A program made the translations under genes and the position numbers. From Candidatus Cryptobacteroides avicola (lineage in GTDB: Bacteria > Bacteroidota > Bacteroidia > Bacteroidales > UBA932): a DNA stretch of 64,000 nt. The stretch's first letter is position 1; each line of letters opens with the position of its first letter. The stretch is taken from NCBI GenBank assembly GCA_017695115.1, contig JADILV010000021.1:62001-126000 (forward strand), written 5' to 3'. Under the pieces are notes generated by a model. That model saw nothing but the letters and a program-made list of their open reading frames with translations, was not told where the DNA came from and made no database searches. Positions 4,124-64,000 of this stretch are shown one piece after another.

Positions 4124-5902
4124 CTATTTTATTTCTATTTCGTATGGCATTCTGGCATAGACCTGACCTGTCCTGGTCCCGTTCCAGTCCATGAACGCCT
4201 CCTCGATTCCTTCAAACGGAGTCCCTGCGAACACTTTTGCGTTGTCACCATTAAAGGCCTGCATGAGTTTCTCCATAGTGGTCAGAGGCTTCGGATATTC
4301 CACTATCTGCCAGTTCGCAAGATCCTGGCCGTAATCTCCGTCAGCAGAAGCCGCTGCATAGAGTATGGCATCCTTGATGGTGCCTATCTGGTCTACAAGC
4401 CCGAGGTCGAGGGCATCGCTGCCGGCCCATACCCTTCCTTGTGCGATAGAATCCACGTATGATTTGTCCAGATTCCTGCCGTCGGCTACTATGCTTGTGA
4501 ACTTGTCGTATATTTTCTCTACCGAAGCCTGCATGTAAGCCGTTTCCGCTTTGTCCAAAGGACGGAATCCGGAGTACATGTCCCCGTGCCTGTTTGTAGA
4601 TACGGCCGTAATGTTGACATGTGCGATATCTTCGAGAGTCCCGCTGAAATCAGGAATCATACTGAATACTCCGATAGATCCTGTGAGAGTTCCTGCATTC
4701 GTGAAAATGTAGTCACAGCTGTTTGAAATCCAGTACCCGCCGGAAGCCGCGTATGCACCGTATGATGCAATGACCGGTTTGTCCTGACGGAGCAGGTCTA
4801 TTTCTGTCTTTATCTTTTCAGACGCGAATACGCTTCCTCCAGGGGAGCTTACCCTGAATACCACGGCCTTTACCGTAGAGTCTTTGCGCACATCGGCGAT
4901 GATGGATGCAAATCTGTCTCCTGCAACCTGTTCCGGCTCGGACCCGTTCACAATATCTCCGTTGGCATAGATGACCGCAATCTTGTTTTCAGCCTTGAAA
5001 TTCGGAAGGACTTTCAGTTTTGCATAGTCAGTAAGTGAAACCATAGGGACATTTTCAGTCTGCCCGGCATCGAAGTAGTCGCTGAGTTTCTGTTTGAGCT
5101 GTTCACGGGTGAGGAGTTCATCGACGAGCCCGTTGTTGAGAAAATCTTCGGAAAAATTAAGTTTCAGGTTGTCTATCAGAGAGTTGAAATCATCTTGACT
5201 TATCTCCCTTGCAGAAGCTATGGTAGAAGTCCAGTTGTTCCAGATGGCGTCGAGCAGTTCCTGGTTCTGCTGCAGGTTTTCAGGGCTCGGACTGTCTTTT
5301 ATGAACATTTCGCCTGCTGATTTGTACTTCCCGTGGCGGATAAGCTGTACATTCACCCCCAGCTTGTCAAGAATGTCCTTTAGAAAGATCATCTGTGAGG
5401 AGAGACCTGAAATCAGGCTCATTGTACCTTCGTGGACGCTCATATAGACCTTGTCTGATGCTGAGGCCAGATAGTACCCCGGAGTGGAAGGTGTTTCCAT
5501 ATAGGAAATTACCGCCTTGCCGCTTCTGCGGAAACCGTCGATTGCGGTCCTGAGTTCCTCGATTTCGGCAATTCCGCCTGAAACCATATCCGGACGCATG
5601 TACATGTATTTGATGGCCGGGTCGGCAGCGGCAGCGTCAATGGCCTGGATGGCATCCCAGATTCCGATGACAGTCATGTTGTTGCCTTGAAGCTGGCTGA
5701 TAGGGTCCGTTTCGGTCGTCTGCTCGCTGACGGCTATTTTGGAGAAATCCAGAGAAAGTACTGCTGTGCGTGGCATTACCGGCTGGCTGCTTCCGAGGGC
5801 TGCGAGGGATCCGATGAATGCAAGCGAGAAAAAGAAGAACACCAGTCCGACCAGGAAGAACCCCAGCATGGCGGCCAGTGTCATTTTGATGAATTCTTTC
5901 AT
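4124..5902 (-). CDS. sppA: Signal peptide peptidase SppA, 67K type
   Basis: Duplicated S49 peptidase domains; VFRVSSPGGSVFASEKI, SYGAYAASGGYWISNSCDYIFTNAGTLTGSIGV; start chosen at MKEFIKMTLAAMLGFF. Confidence 0.93.
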   Translation of the reverse strand: MKEFIKMTLAAMLGFFLVGLVFFFFSLAFIGSLAALGSSQPVMPRTAVLSLDFSKIAVSEQTTETDPISQLQGNNMTVIGIWDAIQAIDAAAADPAIKYMYMRPDMVSGGIAEIEELRTAIDGFRRSGKAVISYMETPSTPGYYLASASDKVYMSVHEGTMSLISGLSSQMIFLKDILDKLGVNVQLIRHGKYKSAGEMFIKDSPSPENLQQNQELLDAIWNNWTSTIASAREISQDDFNSLIDNLKLNFSEDFLNNGLVDELLTREQLKQKLSDYFDAGQTENVPMVSLTDYAKLKVLPNFKAENKIAVIYANGDIVNGSEPEQVAGDRFASIIADVRKDSTVKAVVFRVSSPGGSVFASEKIKTEIDLLRQDKPVIASYGAYAASGGYWISNSCDYIFTNAGTLTGSIGVFSMIPDFSGTLEDIAHVNITAVSTNRHGDMYSGFRPLDKAETAYMQASVEKIYDKFTSIVADGRNLDKSYVDSIAQGRVWAGSDALDLGLVDQIGTIKDAILYAAASADGDYGQDLANWQIVEYPKPLTTMEKLMQAFNGDNAKVFAGTPFEGIEEAFMDWNGTRTGQVYARMPYEIEIK

Positions 5903-17042: not shown

Positions 17043-20000
17043 TTAGAATTTGAACTGCACGCCCAGAGTGAATGTCCTTGAGAAAGGATATGAGTTCCAG
17101 CTGAGCTCAGGATCCCATTCCTTGAACGGACTCCATACCGCGAGGTTGTCACCGTTGATGTAGACTCTGGCTATCTTGAAACTGTAGCCGAGTTCCAAAG
17201 TCTTGAAGCGGAGGAAGCGTCCGTTGCGCATCCAGTATGTGCTGGCTTCAAGGTTCTGTGCCACATCGGCGTTGTTTATGCCCAGTCGCGGATAGGCTGC
17301 ATCCGGATCCGGATCCGCTTCAGTCCAGTGGTTCTTGTCGATGAATTCGATTACGTTGCAGGCATCCTCGCCGAACGGGGTGATTCCGCTTATCATTATG
17401 GTCCTCATTCCTGATCCTGTGAAGTACAGGCCGAGATCCCATTTCTTCCATCCGAGACTGAGTCCGATACCGTACTGGAGTCTCGGGAGATTGCCGTACT
17501 TGGATATCTGCACCTTGTCTATGTCGTTGATGACGCCGTCACCGTTGACGTCCCTGTATTTGACATCACCGGGCATAGGTGTGCTTCCGAGCTGCTGCAC
17601 CGCATGGTTGTCAATATCCTCCTGGCTCGTGAACAGCCCTTCGGCGATATATCCCCGCTGGTAGTATCCGTCGAGAGGGTAGCCGATACGCGATCTCCAC
17701 GGTTCAGGGTATGCCGGCTCTTCGTATGCATCGATCCTGTTCTGGTTGTAGGTCATGTTGAACCTCATTTCCAGTCTCCAGTCCTGCCCGAAGTTCCTGG
17801 CCCAGTTTATGCTGGCTTCGAAACCTTCATTGGTGGCCGCACCTACCTGTCCCCACGGGGTCGCGTTCCAGTATCCTGCTATCGTAGGCCAGGAGGTCCT
17901 TTCCATCATGATGCGGTCACGTTTCTCATGGAAGTAGTCCAGTGTCACATTGACCTGGTTGAACAGGGAGAAGTCCAGACCTACGTCCAGTTTCCTGGAT
18001 CTTTCCCAGTGCGGGTTGTCCACCTGATAGGCATCGACCGCGTGGGCACGGAAACTATACGGGTTGTTCTTTGAAGGCCCGAAGTATGCAGTTCCTCCAC
18101 CGTTGATGGTTATCTGGTCGAAATATACGAAGTGCTCGTAATAGTTGAAGTCATCGCTGCCGACCAGTCCGTATGATCCTCTGAGCTTGAAGTAGTTGAC
18201 AGCGTTGCTGATAGGTTCCCAGAATTTTTCGTTGCTCAGGGCCCATCCTACTGATACTGCCGGGAAGAATTCGAACCGGCGTCCTTTCTGGAGTCGTTCC
18301 GTACCGTTGTATCCGAAGTTGAACTCGAAGAAATAGCGTTCATCGAAGTCGTATGTGGCACGTCCTGAGAGACCCTGGTTACGCTCCGAGAGGCTCTTGT
18401 TCGGACGGTAGTCCCTCATCATGTACATAAGGAGGGCGCCTACGTTGTGCCTGCCGAACTTGCGGGAATAGTTGAGCCTGGCATCGAAGTAGAAGACCTG
18501 GTCGGTTGACGGCTCATCGTATGCTTCGGAGACGTATGTGTCGCCTGCGTCACCAACCTGCTCGAGAGTGTAGTTGTCAGGATCTTCCGGAGACCATGTG
18601 GACTTGTCCACCTCGAAATAGTAAGGGTTGATGGTCTGCTTGTATGTCGATGTAGCATAACTGTTCCAGTTTACCATGGCGGATGCCGAGAGCCCTTTGG
18701 TGATGAAACTGAAGTCTTGCTCGATTTTCAGCACCGCGTTCATCTTGTTTTCCTTTTTCACGGAATAGTCGTCGAGCATTGCCGCATAGGGGTTGAGCCT
18801 GCGGTCAACGGCAGTTTTCATGGCAGTACCGAATCTGATGTATTCGTCGCCCTCCTGCGCAGGGAAAGTGGCCGGGAACATCACCGGATTGGCCCTCAGA
18901 AGATAGCCGAAAAGCTGAGACTCGCCTTCCTGCATGCCCTGTTTCTGGACTATCTGGACATTGAGCCGCAGGTCGAGCTTGGTGGTGTTGGTGAGCTTGT
19001 AGGTGATGTTGTTCTGGAAGTTGTAGATGTACTGGTGGAGGTTGTTGTTGAACATGTAGTCCTTAGGGGCGTTGGCCATACCGGTGTCATGGTTGAAGTT
19101 CAGGGACATGTAGTATGTGGCCTTGTTTCCTCCTCCCTGGATGCTGACGTTTCCGCGCTGGTTGAGGTTGAATTTGCGGAACAGTACTTCCTTCCAGTCG
19201 ACATTCGGATATACGTAAGGATAGAGTCCGCTTCTGGTGTACTCTATGTCCTGTGCGGAATAGGTCGGGACAGCCGCCCCACGTGTCAGGGATGCCTCGT
19301 TGTAAAGTTCCATCCACCTGCCTCCGTCGACGAAGTTGACCATTTTGACAGGCTGCTTGAAGGATGTCTCTACCGTTGCTGTCACCTGGGTGCGCATGTT
19401 CTCGGCTCCGTTCTTGGTGGTGATGAGCATCACTCCGTTGGCTCCGCGCACACCGTAGATGGCTGTGGCCGATGCGTCTTTCAGCAAGGTAACGTTCTTG
19501 ATGGACTCAGCCGGGAGGCGGTTGAGGTCCCCGACCGAGATCTCAACGTCATCCAGAAGGATGAGGGGAGTGGTACGGCCTCCGAAAGTGCTGACGCCAC
19601 GGATGTAGAATTCTGAAGATGAGCCAGGTTCACCTGAGTTGGTGACCGATACGATACCGGCAAGTTTACCGGCGAGGTTCGATGTCAGGTTTGACGAAGA
19701 TGATTTGATGGCTTCTCCCTGTACAGAGGCGACAGCCCCTATGACCGAGATTTTTTTCTGGGTACCCATACCCACTACGACTGCCTCGTCGAGCTCGCTG
19801 TCGGATTCGAGGGCTACATCCACCACTCCCAATTTTCCGACGTCATAAGTACCGGTTTTGAAGCCGATACAGGAAATTTCGAGCTGAGGGTTTGCGGAGG
19901 TGACATAGATGACATAGCTTCCGTCGTCCATTGTCATTACTCCGTTGTTTGTGCCTTTTTCGACAACGAATGCGCCCGGAATCGGTTCCCTGTCTACGGC

Positions 20001-20156
20001 ACTGATGACTTTTCCTGTCACTTCCCTGACCTTATCGGCCTGGACAAGCATGGATTCCCCTCCCTGTCCGGGATCTGGGGCTACAGCTGCATTCGCTTGA
20101 CCTGCAAACGGTAAGCAGGCGAAACATGCCGCTGCTACAAAATGTTTTAAGTGCAT
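17043..20156 (-). CDS. SusC/RagA family TonB-linked outer-membrane protein
   Basis: CarboxypepD_reg-like N-terminus, plug (GANGVMLITTKNG), TonB barrel, SusC C-terminus; paired with SusD. Confidence 0.95.
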   Translation of the reverse strand: MHLKHFVAAACFACLPFAGQANAAVAPDPGQGGESMLVQADKVREVTGKVISAVDREPIPGAFVVEKGTNNGVMTMDDGSYVIYVTSANPQLEISCIGFKTGTYDVGKLGVVDVALESDSELDEAVVVGMGTQKKISVIGAVASVQGEAIKSSSSNLTSNLAGKLAGIVSVTNSGEPGSSSEFYIRGVSTFGGRTTPLILLDDVEISVGDLNRLPAESIKNVTLLKDASATAIYGVRGANGVMLITTKNGAENMRTQVTATVETSFKQPVKMVNFVDGGRWMELYNEASLTRGAAVPTYSAQDIEYTRSGLYPYVYPNVDWKEVLFRKFNLNQRGNVSIQGGGNKATYYMSLNFNHDTGMANAPKDYMFNNNLHQYIYNFQNNITYKLTNTTKLDLRLNVQIVQKQGMQEGESQLFGYLLRANPVMFPATFPAQEGDEYIRFGTAMKTAVDRRLNPYAAMLDDYSVKKENKMNAVLKIEQDFSFITKGLSASAMVNWNSYATSTYKQTINPYYFEVDKSTWSPEDPDNYTLEQVGDAGDTYVSEAYDEPSTDQVFYFDARLNYSRKFGRHNVGALLMYMMRDYRPNKSLSERNQGLSGRATYDFDERYFFEFNFGYNGTERLQKGRRFEFFPAVSVGWALSNEKFWEPISNAVNYFKLRGSYGLVGSDDFNYYEHFVYFDQITINGGGTAYFGPSKNNPYSFRAHAVDAYQVDNPHWERSRKLDVGLDFSLFNQVNVTLDYFHEKRDRIMMERTSWPTIAGYWNATPWGQVGAATNEGFEASINWARNFGQDWRLEMRFNMTYNQNRIDAYEEPAYPEPWRSRIGYPLDGYYQRGYIAEGLFTSQEDIDNHAVQQLGSTPMPGDVKYRDVNGDGVINDIDKVQISKYGNLPRLQYGIGLSLGWKKWDLGLYFTGSGMRTIMISGITPFGEDACNVIEFIDKNHWTEADPDPDAAYPRLGINNADVAQNLEASTYWMRNGRFLRFKTLELGYSFKIARVYINGDNLAVWSPFKEWDPELSWNSYPFSRTFTLGVQFKF

Positions 20157-43521: not shown

Positions 43522-46500
43522 ATGAGAAAAACTTGCTTGATTTTAGCGTGTGTTTTCTCTTTCGGTCTGCTTGGGGGGGGGTATGATATACGCTTGAATG
43601 CCACCGAACTGCAGGCGACACAGGAAGAGAGAGTCATCACGGGTGTCGTGACTGACACCGGCGGGGAGCCTGTTATCGGCGCATCAATTCTCCAGACTGG
43701 GACACTTAATGGTGTCATCACAGATTTAGACGGAGCCTTTACCATTACGGTACCGGACGGTGTTTCGCTTACGGTATCATGTATAGGGTATGAGGACTAT
43801 TCTTTTGTTCTTGACAGAAGAGACAGGTATGAAATCATTCTGAACACATCATCAGAATTTCTGGATGAGGTCGTAGTCGTAGGTATGGATAACCGCCAGA
43901 CGAGACGGTCCATCACCGGTGCGATTTCCACCATCGATACAAAGGATCTGGTGCAGAGCCCTGTGGCCAACATTTCCAATGCTCTTGCCGGCAAGCTTCC
44001 TGGTCTGATGACGGTCCAGTCTTCTGGAGAACCTGGAGCGGATGCTTCTACCTTGTATATCAGAGGTGTAGGAACATACGGTACAACAGCTCCGCTGGTG
44101 GTGATCGACGGACTTCCTCGAGACAAGGCGGACTTCGATATGCTCGATGCCAACGAGATCGAGTCCATCACCATCCTGAAAGACGCCTCTTCATCTTCTC
44201 TGTACGGTATACAGGGAGCGAACGGTGTCGTCGTGGTGACTACCAGACGAGGTGGCGGAAACACCAAGCCAAAAATCTCCTTCACCATACAGCAGGCTCT
44301 TCAGCAGCCGATGAGGCTTCCTGAAACATTGAGTTCATATGAACAGGCTATATATAACAGGACGGTGGATTTCAATGACGGACAGCCAATGAGATATACT
44401 GATGAAGTGCTTGAAATCATAAAGACGAATGCTGATCCGTATCTTTATCCGAATACGAACTGGTTCGATGTAGTGCTGAAGGACCATTCATGGCAGCAGC
44501 AGTACAATGTGAATATCTCTGGAAGTGCCGGCAAGGATAATAGAGTGACATATTTTGTTTCAGGTAGTTATATCAATCAAGGTACTCTCCTGAACCATGA
44601 AGATGTCTTCCAGTCCAATTTTGGAGTCCGTTCGAAATATGACAGGTACAATTTCCGCTCAAATATTGATATCAAGGCCACCAAGATGCTGGACATCAGG
44701 TTTGACCTTGCTGGAAGGTTCGAGACAAGGATAGGTCCGAGTACAAGTTTCTCTAATGTATTCAATATAATTACAACTAGATCACCGAGTTCTCAGGCTA
44801 TTTTCAATCCTGACGGTACATTGGCTGCAGGAAGTAACCTTGAGATACCTTATCAGAACAACCCTTACGGAGTCATTACAGAGAGCGGTTACTACAAGAA
44901 TATCACCAATGTAATGTACGGAACCATCTCGGCCCGTCATGCTCTCGACTTCATAACCAAGGGTCTCAGTATACAGGCGTTTTTCAGTTTTGAAAGCAAC
45001 AGCCAGCTCAACCGTTCATGGAGCCGTGAATTCGAACAGTACTGGTATCGTGGACTTGACCAGAACAACCAGCCTGTATATCAGGACTATACGACCGATG
45101 GGCAGTTGACATCAAGTACATGGCGATCAGTAGACCAGTATACATACTATGATGTCCGTCTCAACTATGACAGGGCATTCGGAGACCACAAGGTGACAGC
45201 ACAGCTTCTCGGAAACCGTACCCTCAGGAATCTTACAGCGTCCGAGTACATGTATGCATACCAGGGTCTCAGTGCGAGGGCTACCTATAATTATGCCGAC
45301 AAGTATTTCCTCGAGTTCAATCTCGGTTACAACGGTTCAGAGAACTTTCCTCCGGGTCGCCGTTATGGACTGTTCCCTTCTTTTTCTGCCGGCTGGGTGC
45401 TCAGCGAGGAGCCGTGGCTTAATATGCCTGATGCTGTCAAGATCTTAAAACTGAGAGGTTCATACGGAGTAGTCGGAAATGACCAGATAGGCGGAGAACG
45501 TTTCCTTTATCTGTCAGATTTCGGTCCTGGCGGTGGATGGTCAGGTATATTTACCGGAGGATATTATTTCGGAACCACTAATGGTGGTACAGTGACCAAC
45601 GGAGGATATAATGAGACAAGAGTCGGCAATATGTACGTGACATGGGAAAAAGCCAAAAAGACCAATGTCGGTTTTGACCTTTCTCTGTTCAGGAACAACG
45701 CCGTCAACTTTACTCTGGACTATTTCTATGAGATGCGTGACAACATCCTTACCGAGGCGGGCCGTGTGCCTGACTATGTGGGAATCGAAAATGTCGCTCC
45801 CCGCAACTCCGGAAAAGTCCGCAACCAGGGTCTCGAGGGAGAGTTGAACCTGAACTTCCAGTTCGGCAATGACTTCTCGATGTTCGCGAACATCCAGGCT
45901 ACCTGGGCGAAAAACAAGGTCCTTGAAAATGACCAGCCTACTCCTGCTTTTGAATATCAGGATCTGAGGGGATATGAAATTGGGTATGACCTTGGTTATC
46001 ATGCCATCGGCTTATTTGAAAGTTATGAAGAAATCGAAAACAGTCCTACTCAGAATTTCGGTCCTGTCATTCCTGGCGATATAAAATATCAGGATGTGAA
46101 TGAAGATGGCGAGATCGACCCGTCTGACCGTATACCTATCAAGTGCTATTCTGTACCGACACTCACAGGTGGCTTCTCTATAGGATTCAATTATAAAGGT
46201 TTTGACTTCAGCGTGATGTTCAGTGGTGCGATCGGAGGTACTGCAAGACTGTTCCCATATCAGAGCAGTATTGTCAACCTCAAACGTTGGACTCCTGAAA
46301 ATCATAATGCAATCCTTCCTGTAGCGCATACTACTGCAAACAATACGGTATTGTCTGATCAGAACCTTATGAAGACTGATTATCTGAAGCTCAGAAATGT
46401 AGAGATCGGGTATACTTTCCCTACGAGGTGGTTGTCAAAGATCCGTATTTCAAGTGCACGACTGTATCTGAATGCACAGAATGTGGCGGTTTGGGATAAG

Positions 46501-46599
46501 ATGTGGCTTAAAGACCGCGACCCGGAATCTGCTGGATCTGGAACTTTGCCTTATCCGCTTCAGAGGATTTTCAATATCGGACTTCGCTTTGACATATAA
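43522..46599 (+). CDS. SusC/RagA family TonB-linked outer-membrane protein with 9-nt poly-G tract in 5' coding region
   Basis: CarboxypepD_reg-like domain, plug, barrel; followed by SusD. Poly-G at 43573-43581. Confidence 0.95.
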   Translation: MRKTCLILACVFSFGLLGGGYDIRLNATELQATQEERVITGVVTDTGGEPVIGASILQTGTLNGVITDLDGAFTITVPDGVSLTVSCIGYEDYSFVLDRRDRYEIILNTSSEFLDEVVVVGMDNRQTRRSITGAISTIDTKDLVQSPVANISNALAGKLPGLMTVQSSGEPGADASTLYIRGVGTYGTTAPLVVIDGLPRDKADFDMLDANEIESITILKDASSSSLYGIQGANGVVVVTTRRGGGNTKPKISFTIQQALQQPMRLPETLSSYEQAIYNRTVDFNDGQPMRYTDEVLEIIKTNADPYLYPNTNWFDVVLKDHSWQQQYNVNISGSAGKDNRVTYFVSGSYINQGTLLNHEDVFQSNFGVRSKYDRYNFRSNIDIKATKMLDIRFDLAGRFETRIGPSTSFSNVFNIITTRSPSSQAIFNPDGTLAAGSNLEIPYQNNPYGVITESGYYKNITNVMYGTISARHALDFITKGLSIQAFFSFESNSQLNRSWSREFEQYWYRGLDQNNQPVYQDYTTDGQLTSSTWRSVDQYTYYDVRLNYDRAFGDHKVTAQLLGNRTLRNLTASEYMYAYQGLSARATYNYADKYFLEFNLGYNGSENFPPGRRYGLFPSFSAGWVLSEEPWLNMPDAVKILKLRGSYGVVGNDQIGGERFLYLSDFGPGGGWSGIFTGGYYFGTTNGGTVTNGGYNETRVGNMYVTWEKAKKTNVGFDLSLFRNNAVNFTLDYFYEMRDNILTEAGRVPDYVGIENVAPRNSGKVRNQGLEGELNLNFQFGNDFSMFANIQATWAKNKVLENDQPTPAFEYQDLRGYEIGYDLGYHAIGLFESYEEIENSPTQNFGPVIPGDIKYQDVNEDGEIDPSDRIPIKCYSVPTLTGGFSIGFNYKGFDFSVMFSGAIGGTARLFPYQSSIVNLKRWTPENHNAILPVAHTTANNTVLSDQNLMKTDYLKLRNVEIGYTFPTRWLSKIRISSARLYLNAQNVAVWDKMWLKDRDPESAGSGTLPYPLQRIFNIGLRFDI
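43573..43581 (+). repeat. Homopolymeric G9 tract within susC-like gene
   Basis: ctgcttGGGGGGGGGtatgat. Confidence 0.95.
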
Positions 46600-46617: not shown

Positions 46618-48309
46618 ATGAAAAGGATATATATACTGGCAACAATTCTGCCTGCCGTGGTGTCGGTGGTCTCGTGTTCAGACTTCCTTGAGAGGGCACC
46701 GGGAGACAACATGACTGAGCAGGAACTCTTCTCTAAAATAGAGACTGCAGAAGCATATCTTGATAATGTTTACACGTATTTGCCAGATTTCCAGTATAAT
46801 ACTGAAGATCTGAGTGGCAGGTATAAACTTGGGGATGCTACTGATGAAGGAGGATTTCAGCAGGCTTCCGGGTATACACAGTGCCCGTTCGACATTAACC
46901 TTGGCAGCTGGAACTCGGAAACAATGCCTATGCAGCGAAACTGGTCTGATTACTATGGGTGTATAAGGCGCTGCAACATGCTGATAAAGAACTATGACCT
47001 CATTCCTGAAGAAATGACAACAGGAGCTGCGACCAACAGGAAGGAGCGTATCCTAGGTGAAGCGTACGGATTACGAGGATATTATTATTTTCTTCTGTTC
47101 AAGCAGTGGGGAGGTGTTCCTATCATTACATCTGTTCTCGACCCTGGAGACGAGTCCCAGCTCAATGGCATCAAAAGAGCCTCGGCAGAAGAAACTCTTC
47201 AGCGAGTTCTTGATGATATGGATGAGGCGATCAAGCATCTTCCTGCAAAGCATAATGACGCCAATTTCGGACGGTTCACTTCTCTGATAGCGACTGTCGT
47301 AAAGTCTCAGGTGAAACTCTATTGGGCAAGCAAGTACTGGAACAGGGATAATGATAAAGCCCGCTGGTCGGAAGCTGTTGATGCTTGTCGTGAAGCATAT
47401 AATATGGCACTTCAGAACGGACATGTCCTGGCCCGTACCTACAGATCTCTTTTTAATGAGACAGGTCTTCAGAGTGAGGTTATATGGACAAAGAATTCAC
47501 CATACTATTATGAATGTTACTGGTGGGACTTTTATGCTATGCCTCTCGGCTATGGCGCATTCAATGTGGACGGTCCACTTCAGGAGTTGGTGGATGATTT
47601 TGAAATGAAAGAATCGGGAGAAATACCTGTCCTTGGATATACTGCTGACAATCAGCCTATTCTTAATGAAAAGGCCTATGATTATGATCCGGCACATCCA
47701 TGGGAAGGTAGAGAGGACAGGTTCTATTCATGCATCCTTTACCATGGAGCCATTTTACAGGACAGACCTATCGATATTTCTGCCAGTGGCAAGGATAATA
47801 TCAATATAGGTTCGATCATACGTACCAATTATTTTACCAATAAATATCTGGATCCGGATCATAATCTGGTTACAAACCAGACCTGGACATACAGGAGGTT
47901 TGCAAGTATACGTACAGCTGAACTGTATCTTAACTATGCAGAAGCGCTGAATGAACTTGACGGTCCTACACAGGCAGTTTATCAGCTTGTAAATGATATA
48001 AGGCGTAGAGCCGATCAGCCAGATCTTCCAGAAGGACTGTCACAGGAACAGATGCGTGAGAAGATTTATCATGAAAGGAGAATAGAACTCTGCTTCGAGA
48101 ATCACCGTTTCTGGGATGTTCGCAGATGGATGATTGCTGAGGATGTTGACAATGGTCCGGTACATAGAGTTATGGTAGGTGACGATGGCACTATTACCTA
48201 TCCTATATTCCAGAACAGGGTGTTCGATCCGAGCAAGCATTATCTGTTCCCTATACCTCAGCGTGAAATAGACAAGAACAACGCTCTGGAACAGAATCCT
48301 GGATGGTGA
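46618..48309 (+). CDS. RagB/SusD family nutrient uptake lipoprotein
   Basis: VVSC lipobox; GEAYGLRGYYYFLLFKQWGGVPII, IRTAELYLNYAEALNEL, ERRIELCFENHRFWDVRRW. Confidence 0.93.
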   Translation: MKRIYILATILPAVVSVVSCSDFLERAPGDNMTEQELFSKIETAEAYLDNVYTYLPDFQYNTEDLSGRYKLGDATDEGGFQQASGYTQCPFDINLGSWNSETMPMQRNWSDYYGCIRRCNMLIKNYDLIPEEMTTGAATNRKERILGEAYGLRGYYYFLLFKQWGGVPIITSVLDPGDESQLNGIKRASAEETLQRVLDDMDEAIKHLPAKHNDANFGRFTSLIATVVKSQVKLYWASKYWNRDNDKARWSEAVDACREAYNMALQNGHVLARTYRSLFNETGLQSEVIWTKNSPYYYECYWWDFYAMPLGYGAFNVDGPLQELVDDFEMKESGEIPVLGYTADNQPILNEKAYDYDPAHPWEGREDRFYSCILYHGAILQDRPIDISASGKDNINIGSIIRTNYFTNKYLDPDHNLVTNQTWTYRRFASIRTAELYLNYAEALNELDGPTQAVYQLVNDIRRRADQPDLPEGLSQEQMREKIYHERRIELCFENHRFWDVRRWMIAEDVDNGPVHRVMVGDDGTITYPIFQNRVFDPSKHYLFPIPQREIDKNNALEQNPGW

Positions 48310-57221: not shown

Positions 57222-58730
57222 ATGAGATTAAATATGAAATTAAAATATGTTCTTCTGTTATTGTTGCTTTTTGCCTGTGTGGAATCTTCTTTTTCTCATA
57301 CCAGACCAGTGAAAGGTACATGGGTGAATCTGTTCTGGCAGGATGAAAGGAACAATTACATGAATCCCCGGTATATGGATATTACCGATCCTCTTCTTTG
57401 GAAGACCAAGATTGAAGAACTGCATGATATGGGGATGGAGTATGTGGTGATAATGGCTGTGGCAAATGAGGAGAGAGCCTGCTACCCGTCCGGATTTATG
57501 GAACCTGCGTATCCTGAAGACAGACAGAGTCCTGTCGAGGCAATAATGGAGGCTGCTGATGAGTGTGGCATGAGTGTTTTCATGAGCTGTGGCTGGGCGA
57601 AGAACCAGCTGGACAATCTGAAGGACCCCGATGTGAAAGAGACACAGTTGAGAATAATGGAGGAGACTGCACGGCTGTTTTCGGGCCACAAGTCGTTTTA
57701 TGGGTGGTATCTGCCTGTGGAGGACAGCTTTGAGCCTGTCCTTTCCGATCATGCGGTGCAAGCTGTCAATGCTCTTGCCGCCAGAGCAAGAGAACTGACT
57801 CCTGGCAAGATGGTCATGATATCGCCGTACGGACTGTGCAATGCTGACTATGCCTCCCCGAAATTCGCGGAGCAGATCCGCAGACTGAAAGTGGATATAA
57901 TAGCTTATCAGGATGAGGTGGGATGTGTCAGGGAACCTATGCCTATGAGGCGGATGAAGGAACATTTCAAGATTCTGGGTGACATACACGAGGAGACCGG
58001 GATAAGGTTCTGGGCTAATGTCGAGTCTTTTACATGGGACCGGGAAACTAACAGCTGGTATTCTTCTCTTGTCCCTGCCGCATTCGGAAGGTATCTGTCC
58101 CAGCTGGTCGGTGTCTCGCAGGCAGGTGTCGACAATGTTCTGAGCTTTTCGATATACGGGATTTATGACAGGCCCGGATCCCCTTTCCCTCTAGGGCAGC
58201 CGGTGTGGTCCAATGTTGCATACAATGACTACATGGACTGGCTGTCTGGAAAAGGACGGTGGCCTCTTCTGGAAGCTACTTTCTATGACAGTGTGGCTAA
58301 CGGTGCCCAAGGAAAGACTGTGTCTGCTTCTGGGGCTTCCTGTCCTTCTTTGCTCACAGACGGCGATTTCGGGTATGAAGACTGTGGAGCTTCTCAGTGG
58401 TGCCGCTTTGACGGAGGTAAGATGGAGGCTGTGATTGATCTGGAGAATATCGCCGAAATATGTTCTTTGGCTGTGCGTTTCCTTAATTATGCTCATGCTG
58501 CTGTCTCTATTCCTCGTATTGTGGACTTTTATGTGTCAGATACCGGCGAATGTTTTGAGAAAGTGAGTACAGTGGTTATGGACAATACTCCTAATGTTTT
58601 GCATGACTGCTGGATAGATCTGGCTTCAACGGGACCCGTGTCAGCGAGGGGCAGGTATGTCAAGGTGGTGGCGGAATGCGAGGATGGTGATATTTGCTGT
58701 GACGAAATTTTCATCAACCCTGTATTTTAG
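57222..58730 (+). CDS. DUF4434-type protein with C-terminal discoidin-like domain
   Basis: GTWVNLFWQDERN, MGMEYVVIMAVANEERACYPSG, GWYLPVEDSFEPVLSD, C-terminal jelly-roll-like region. Confidence 0.68.
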   Translation: MRLNMKLKYVLLLLLLFACVESSFSHTRPVKGTWVNLFWQDERNNYMNPRYMDITDPLLWKTKIEELHDMGMEYVVIMAVANEERACYPSGFMEPAYPEDRQSPVEAIMEAADECGMSVFMSCGWAKNQLDNLKDPDVKETQLRIMEETARLFSGHKSFYGWYLPVEDSFEPVLSDHAVQAVNALAARARELTPGKMVMISPYGLCNADYASPKFAEQIRRLKVDIIAYQDEVGCVREPMPMRRMKEHFKILGDIHEETGIRFWANVESFTWDRETNSWYSSLVPAAFGRYLSQLVGVSQAGVDNVLSFSIYGIYDRPGSPFPLGQPVWSNVAYNDYMDWLSGKGRWPLLEATFYDSVANGAQGKTVSASGASCPSLLTDGDFGYEDCGASQWCRFDGGKMEAVIDLENIAEICSLAVRFLNYAHAAVSIPRIVDFYVSDTGECFEKVSTVVMDNTPNVLHDCWIDLASTGPVSARGRYVKVVAECEDGDICCDEIFINPVF

Positions 58731-62291: not shown

Positions 62292-63380
62292 TTATAGATT
62301 GAAGTATTCCTTGTATCTGTCGAAAAGATGTCCGGCCTGCAGATAGGCTGACTGCGGGCTCATGAAATGCGAAAATTCGAAGGTGATAGCCTTGTCATAT
62401 CCGCACCGTGCCGCCGCTTCCAGTTTCATCCTCAGCTTGTCGAACTTGATAGGCAGGAAATTGATAGGCATATCACGGTCAAAAGTTTCGGCATTGGTCC
62501 AGCACTGCATCCCGTATTTGTCTGCAAGTTTTTTATTTACAGTAAAGAATGCGTCAAGTTCATCGTAGTCGATGTGTCCGTCCTGGAATGCGCACGCGTC
62601 TACGACATCGTGTATCCCGTCGAATATCTCGTTCCATTCTTTTTCGTGCTGGGCTACCGATACTGCCTGGTCGTTGGTCATTTTGCCTGTGCCCATTATG
62701 GCTTTCTTGCCGTCAATCCACGGGGAAATGAATGTCGGCAGCCCGCCTGAAACATCTTTGCACTGTTTTCCCAGCGCATGGAAGGCGTCTATAGCCCCTT
62801 TGGTCTTGCGGCTGATTTCTCCGCTGATATACCATCCTCCGAAACTGTCGTATTTTTCCCCGTACATTCTCCAGACTTCATCGATGACATATTTGTTGTC
62901 TTCAATCTCGTAAGACAGGTCTCCGGTATCCCAGTATTTTCCGGAATCATACAGCCCGAACCAGAACTTCATCCCGTATTTCTGCGCCAGTCTCAGGAAC
63001 ATGTCTATCAGGTCGACAGAAGGCATGTAACATCCTTTCTTCAAGAGGTACGGAGAAGGGTAGGTGATGAATTTGCGGTATCCGGAACGTATCACTATCA
63101 CCGTATCTATCCCTATGGATTTCATGTATCTGAAATCGGCGTCCCATTCCTTTTCGCCCCAGTTCTGGTGCGGGATGTCATGGGAAATCTCGTCAAGGAA
63201 AGTCCCGGTAATCTTGAGCCCCTGCGCTTTCGGGACGATAAGGCCTCCGGTGCTGTCTTGGTTTGCCGCGCGGCTCCCGCCTGCCGGGGAACATGAGCTG
63301 ACTGACAATATGCCCGGCGCAGCTATGGCTGAAGCTGCTGCGGCTGCTGCTGTTTTCAGGAATGATCTGCGGTCTGTCAT
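62292..63380 (-). CDS. DUF4434-type protein with Tat-like signal and lipobox
   Basis: MTDRRSFLKTAAAAAASAIAAPGILSVSSC; KITGTFLDEISHDIPHQNWGEKEWDADFRYMKSIGIDTVIVIRSGY. Confidence 0.7.
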   Translation of the reverse strand: MTDRRSFLKTAAAAAASAIAAPGILSVSSCSPAGGSRAANQDSTGGLIVPKAQGLKITGTFLDEISHDIPHQNWGEKEWDADFRYMKSIGIDTVIVIRSGYRKFITYPSPYLLKKGCYMPSVDLIDMFLRLAQKYGMKFWFGLYDSGKYWDTGDLSYEIEDNKYVIDEVWRMYGEKYDSFGGWYISGEISRKTKGAIDAFHALGKQCKDVSGGLPTFISPWIDGKKAIMGTGKMTNDQAVSVAQHEKEWNEIFDGIHDVVDACAFQDGHIDYDELDAFFTVNKKLADKYGMQCWTNAETFDRDMPINFLPIKFDKLRMKLEAAARCGYDKAITFEFSHFMSPQSAYLQAGHLFDRYKEYFNL

Positions 63381-63507
63381 AAAAAAATAATTTAAATTTA
63401 TTATTAATGAATCAACCACAAAAATAGAAAAATAATTAATAAAACATCCTTATTCGATAATAAAAAATTTTATAATTAAATATTTGTTAAATAAATATAT
63501 TTGATGT

Positions 63508-63622: not shown

Positions 63623-64000
63623 ATGAATTTAAACTTAAAAAATGAAAAACTACTCGGAAAATTGGCGATGGTCATTTTTCTGGGGGTATTGTCTGGCGGA
63701 ATTCAAATGTTCGCCGGTTCTTCTGATCTTGGGGGGGGCATAACGCTCCAGCAGCAAGACACGAAGCAGATTGAAGGCATCGTGCTGGATGAAAACAGGC
63801 AGCCTGTGGCCGGTGCGAGCGTCGCTATTGCGGACGACCTTTCTGTAGGTACCATCACGGATGTAGATGGTGAATTTTCTATTTCTGTTCCTGGAAATTC
63901 AGATGTCATTGTGTCTTTTATAGGGTATAAGGATGCGGTGGTCCCTACACAGGGGGTGACGTATCTTGAAGTCCAGCTCATTCCTGATGCACAGGTGCTT
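63623..64000 (+). CDS. SusC/RagA-type TonB-linked outer-membrane protein, N-terminal part (truncated by window end), with G8 tract
   Basis: MNLNLKNEKLLGKLAMVIFLGVLSGGIQMFAGSSDLGGGITLQQQDTKQIEGIVLDENRQPVAGASVAIADDLSVGTITDVDGEFSISVPGNSDVIVSFIGYKD read directly; open to window end. Confidence 0.85.
   Translation, partial: MNLNLKNEKLLGKLAMVIFLGVLSGGIQMFAGSSDLGGGITLQQQDTKQIEGIVLDENRQPVAGASVAIADDLSVGTITDVDGEFSISVPGNSDVIVSFIGYKDAVVPTQGVTYLEVQLIPDAQVL
63731..63738 (+). repeat. Homopolymeric G8 tract within susC-like gene
   Basis: tctgatcttGGGGGGGGcataacgctcc. Confidence 0.95.

Follow-up and report, generated by a model that had tools for sequence, protein, structure and literature searches.

Poly-G tracts at the 5′ ends of SusC genes in “Candidatus Cryptobacteroides avicola” as probable slipped-strand phase-variation switches

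Poly-G phase variation of TonB-dependent receptors is known from Neisseria meningitidis, in which the haemoglobin receptors HmbR and HpuAB are switched in this way (PMC3786947, PMC3352162), and Campylobacter jejuni NCTC11168 has a poly-G/C phasome of 29 loci with tracts of ≥7 (PMC4965091). The reviews consulted describe phase variation in gut Bacteroidales as DNA inversion. In Bacteroides fragilis, a DNA invertase is known to cause phase variation of SusC/SusD (Nakayama-Imaohji 2009, as cited in PMC11868660). A 2025 review of model Bacteroidales discusses inversion, and terms for slippage and homopolymers are absent from it (PMC12632263); a 2010 B. fragilis paper goes no further than to suggest slippage where an acetyltransferase has four consecutive C's (PMC3090145). 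We found no earlier report of poly-G tracts or slipped-strand switching in SusC genes in the literature searched (subscription papers and preprints were outside its scope, and priority is unproven). Poly-G switching of TonB-dependent receptors in Neisseria and SusC/SusD inversion in Bacteroides are thus known, but the poly-G route to SusC variation is apparently undescribed.

We conclude, with a probability of roughly 0.87, that the poly-G tracts in SusC genes of “Ca. Cryptobacteroides avicola”, which belongs to an uncultured Bacteroidales genus of >400 species, are slipped-strand phase-variation (contingency) switches, including the G8 tract of the gene designated here SusC-2. The likeness to HmbR and HpuAB lies in TonB-dependent outer-membrane receptors with poly-G within the reading frame and ON/OFF states set by that frame. 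The present system differs in belonging to another phylum and to the SusC/RagA family with its SusD partner, in having many receptors per genome, in a presumed cargo of glycans or peptides rather than haem, and in being known from sequence alone. The B. fragilis invertase system, as the citing paper presents it, shares protein family, order and stochastic SusC expression, but there a recombinase inverts a promoter, whereas here the frame shifts at an intragenic poly-G tract; an invertible promoter would be unnecessary for a slippage switch, and both mechanisms could coexist. As in the C. jejuni phasome, the G/C tracts of a genome number in the tens and many lie in surface-related genes, but the phylum is another, SusC transporters are the largest class, and the other classes include lipoproteins, sigma and anti-sigma factors and hybrid regulators.

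The window (the whole stretch of DNA analysed, 64,000 nucleotides) ends within SusC-2, the 5′ part of which occupies 63623 to 64000 of the forward strand. Its translation is that of a SusC/RagA-type TonB-dependent outer-membrane transporter; the whole gene encodes 1,049 amino acids and extends past the window to G000:C84:128772. The reading frame from the ATG at 63623 starts MNLNLKNEKLLGKLAMVIFLGVLSGGIQMFAGSSDLGGGITLQQQ... and includes the G8 tract in frame (63731 to 63738, codons 37 to 39), in the interval between the signal peptide and the N-terminal domain. The original prediction of a G8 tract in a SusC frame just past the signal peptide, with built-in stops at both neighbouring lengths, was confirmed in coordinates and frame: G8 is the ON length and gives 1,049 codons from this ATG, G7 gives 39 codons ending at a TAA (63741 to 63743) and G9 gives 50 codons ending at a TGA (63772 to 63774). 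An alternative start, ATG 63642, lies in another frame and would enter the SusC frame at G9, but its N-terminus does not resemble a signal peptide, and orthologues begin at MNFNL, matching 63623. A 548-amino-acid lipoprotein reading frame lies 3′ of SusC-2, beyond the window. Next to SusC-2, a GH3 gene and a gene resembling GlcNAc 2-epimerase are flanked by two DUF4434 proteins (57222 to 58730 and 62292 to 63419), and all of these probably form a single glycan-utilisation locus with SusC-2.

The other tract-bearing SusC of the window, SusC-1 (43522 to 46599, forward strand; 1,025 amino acids by translation), has a G9 tract at 43573 to 43581, at codons 18 to 20 and the end of the signal peptide. 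G9 is its ON length; G8, G9 and G10 give 24, 1,025 and 21 codons, respectively. SusC-1 and SusC-2 both match TIGR04056 over their full length and above the cut-off of 368.25 bits (876.4 and 698.8 bits), and SusC-1 has the adjacent SusD expected of a SusC/RagA transporter (46618 to 48309, forward strand; PF07980, 1.6e−50; PF14322, 2.7e−20). Each of the two genes has, as in a phase-variable locus of the simple-sequence-repeat type, a repeat that sets the frame and stops that close the other frames, as one-base slips at either tract reach a stop after about 20 to 50 codons. The third SusC (17043 to 20156, reverse strand; TIGR04056, 872.9 bits) served as a tract-free internal negative control and has no run of ≥6 in its 5′ region, as anticipated. 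The claim that the window holds no further G/C run of ≥8 holds even for ≥7 on both strands, where just the G8 and G9 tracts were found. The raw count of G/C runs in the window, however, shows no excess over dinucleotide shuffles, and raw over-representation was dropped as evidence. The suggestion that the tracts occupy homologous sites stands insofar as both lie between the signal-peptide core and the N-terminal domain; their codons differ (18 to 20 versus 37 to 39), and a single homologous site was rejected.

The significance of the tracts comes instead from the genome-wide run-length spectrum and from placement. Exact G runs in the genome number 3 (G7), 26 (G8, derived from match totals), 16 (G9) and 1 (G10), with 43 G tracts of ≥8. 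In a 223-kb sample that combined the SusC loci with the window, the probability that a run extends by one further base is 0.12 to 0.20 at lengths 3 to 5 and jumps thereafter, and run-extension models were rejected up to p = 0.5 (2e−10 at 0.5; 1e−16 at 0.35). The G9 count is the highest among 101 genomes of the genus (runner-up, 14), and the remaining 100 have means of 2 G9 and 8 G7 runs, which indicates a tract set that is well developed in this lineage but patchy across the genus. The majority of genomes sampled across the order have 0 to 5 G9 runs; exceptions include G438 and G495, from other families of the order, which have 24 and 28 exact G9 runs, above the number found here, and may represent separate poly-G sets.

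A profile search found 33 SusCs above the TIGR04056 cut-off. Readable 5′ ends also number 33, as the contig-end fragment L084 was added and L054, whose 5′ end is cut, was omitted; L054 is probably the other end of the L084 gene, because both match L220 at 100%. The prediction required an excess of tracts in susC 5′ regions across the genome, and such an excess was found: a tract is present at nine of the 33 5′ ends (G8, G9 or C8 at eight of them, G7 at one), while at the remaining 24 no G or C run reaches a length of 6. By area, 0.07 G8+/C8 tracts would be expected close to SusC starts, and eight were found; six genes have an in-frame G8/C8 against a synonymous-codon null with a mean of 0.10 and a maximum of 2 in 2,000 draws. 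The run spectrum and this 5′ enrichment give the excess and the placement of a phase-variable class of loci, and both out-of-frame phases stop within 15 to 52 codons in every N-terminal tract gene of the genome. A further SusC (L065:2546-2553, contig C18) has an in-frame G8 at codon 188, beyond the N-terminal region.

Both states occur within the genome. Six tract-bearing SusCs are ON and three are OFF: one on contig C22 (tract C8, ON at a tract length of C9), one at C21:90248 (G9, ON at G8) and one on contig C9 (G7, ON at G8). Read at the ON length, the downstream frames of all three, of about 1,000 codons, are intact. The OFF share is 3/9 for tract-bearing and 0/24 for tractless SusCs (Fisher test, about 0.015, or 0.014 counting 25). 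Six species, including this one, retain the SusC-1 tract at 73 to 87% protein identity; it is ON in three (G9 here; G8 in L102 and L104) and OFF in three (G8 in L101 and L103; G9 in L105). The 34 tract-bearing SusCs read in five relatives (G061 to G065) comprise 21 ON and 13 OFF. All compared genomes are assemblies, mostly metagenomic, in which homopolymer lengths may be off by one.

Alignments with the closest relative, G061, indicate how the tracts change. The SusC on contig C9 (L096/L224) is collinear with its counterpart except for a one-base indel, OFF (G7) here and ON (G8) in G061, so that this gene, like SusC-1, has both states across species. At L036/L205, GGGGTGGG here corresponds to G8 in G061, and at L084/L220, G8 here corresponds to GGGGGGAG in G061, the displayed flanks being otherwise identical. 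These single-step differences imply that tract length shifts by one base and that tracts are born or lost by one substitution. A design fixed across the genus is ruled out, as 26 of the 29 best SusC-1-like matches in the genus lack a tract. For SusC-2, the best match among the first five relatives found had 35% identity and was hence rejected as an orthologue; a search of the genus yielded three full-length orthologues (82%, 71% and 71% identity), none with a run of ≥6 near the start, and both states were not seen among its relatives. Switching of SusC-2, and any variation in its tract length, are accordingly inferred from the tract-bearing class and not read from its own variants. The original prediction of a shared contingency design rather than chance is upheld by the non-chance spectrum and placement, but needs amendment in that the tracts differ in position and are gained and lost through single substitutions.

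An origin of the G runs by chance in linkers that encode glycine, with frame-shifted copies as ordinary pseudogenes or assembly errors, would be compatible with the unexceptional run count of the window, with the tolerance of glycine-rich linkers for GGG codons and with the miscalling of homopolymers in metagenome assemblies. We consider this very unlikely, given that G7 is depleted and G8 to G9 are enriched genome-wide, that the tracts are placed at SusC starts, that the downstream frames of OFF genes are intact and undecayed, and that ON and OFF alleles recur among orthologues of several independently assembled species. The intact OFF frames would also suit programmed ribosomal frameshifting or transcriptional slippage at the tract, through which OFF alleles would yield some full-length protein, and polymerase slippage is also possible on G8 to G9 runs. 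However, the majority of alleles already have the in-frame length, at which slippage of this kind would merely lower output, and orthologues differ in tract length; this explanation seems the least likely of those considered.

Somewhat less improbable, but still unlikely, is that the tracts mutate readily, as hot spots, and now and then inactivate genes but are not maintained as reversible switches. Some tracts are lineage-specific, that of SusC-2 is missing from its orthologues, and those at L036 and L084 are one substitution from their relatives. Against this, the SusC-1 tract has been kept in six species with both states present, which demands either return to ON or lasting tolerance of OFF, and the G7 gap in the spectrum implies that a length of 8 to 9 is maintained. 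The tract-free SusC-2 orthologues, the shortness of G8 to G9 and the patchiness of tracts in the genus count against phase-variation switches, which we nevertheless favor. From the tracts, their non-random spectrum and placement, the ON and OFF alleles within the genome and between species, and the intact OFF frames, we infer slippage in living cells, its reversibility, a phenotype and an advantage.

Tracts also occur outside SusC genes. Early tracts are found in lipoproteins with BACON domains (L069, L078 and L081), and a small lipoprotein (L070:4154-4162) has a G9 tract inside its signal peptide, with the lipobox in frame at another length only, so that this gene is apparently OFF. Among regulators, an ECF sigma factor (L088:4307-4852; C69:15307-15852) has an in-frame G9 at codon 12, and ∼1.4 kb downstream of it lies a SusC whose N-terminus is extended; if phase variable, the sigma factor would switch the entire locus. 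A G8 tract just before a FecR anti-sigma reading frame (L064, locus positions 4984 to 4991, reverse strand) follows a start codon that shares the FecR frame at G9 but not at G8, and the gene looks OFF from its reading frame; another FecR frame also has a tract upstream (L090). A hybrid two-component regulator (L087) and an AraC-type regulator (L093) have internal tracts, and an MFS_2 sugar-transporter reading frame (L091:3416-4243), far shorter than its family, has a G9 at codon 83, at which it is possibly frame-shifted. Tracts deep within genes may be neutral.

Further G tracts of ≥8 are intergenic. DUF3575 proteins have internal tracts at four loci (L075, L085, L092 and L094), and at two of these, tracts lie upstream of TAnnTTTG boxes ahead of the genes (L094:4395-4403, G9; L075:4064-4071, G8), each of which also has a second, internal G8; the upstream tracts are possible promoter-spacing switches. 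Across 151 genomes of the genus, G8 occurs 12 to 30 bases before TAnnTTTG at 24 sites, against 4 for the reversed control, a pattern that suggests promoter tracts in the genus too, although this is less well supported than the SusC part. A genome-wide poly-G phasome at SusC frames, at regulators (ECF sigma, FecR anti-sigma and hybrid two-component) and at promoter spacing before TAnnTTTG, giving cells of the same clone different combinations of active polysaccharide-utilisation loci, is a tentative extension to which we give slightly less than an even chance.

Under the slipped-strand switching proposed here for SusC genes, mispairing during replication would alter a tract by one base; an in-frame length would allow translation of the full SusC transporter, and a tract one base longer or shorter would bring a stop soon after (39 or 50 codons in SusC-2), in or near the signal peptide. 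Cells would each express a changing subset of their own SusC transporters, resulting in varied glycan uptake and in variation in the surface receptors that phage or host encounter. The ecological role would presumably be glycan choice and escape from phage or antibodies that target SusC. Such a switch, if real, would escape inversion-finding tools, and OFF copies would be truncated or dropped by gene callers. SusC slippage could then partly explain why strains differ in the glycans they use and in their sensitivity to phage.
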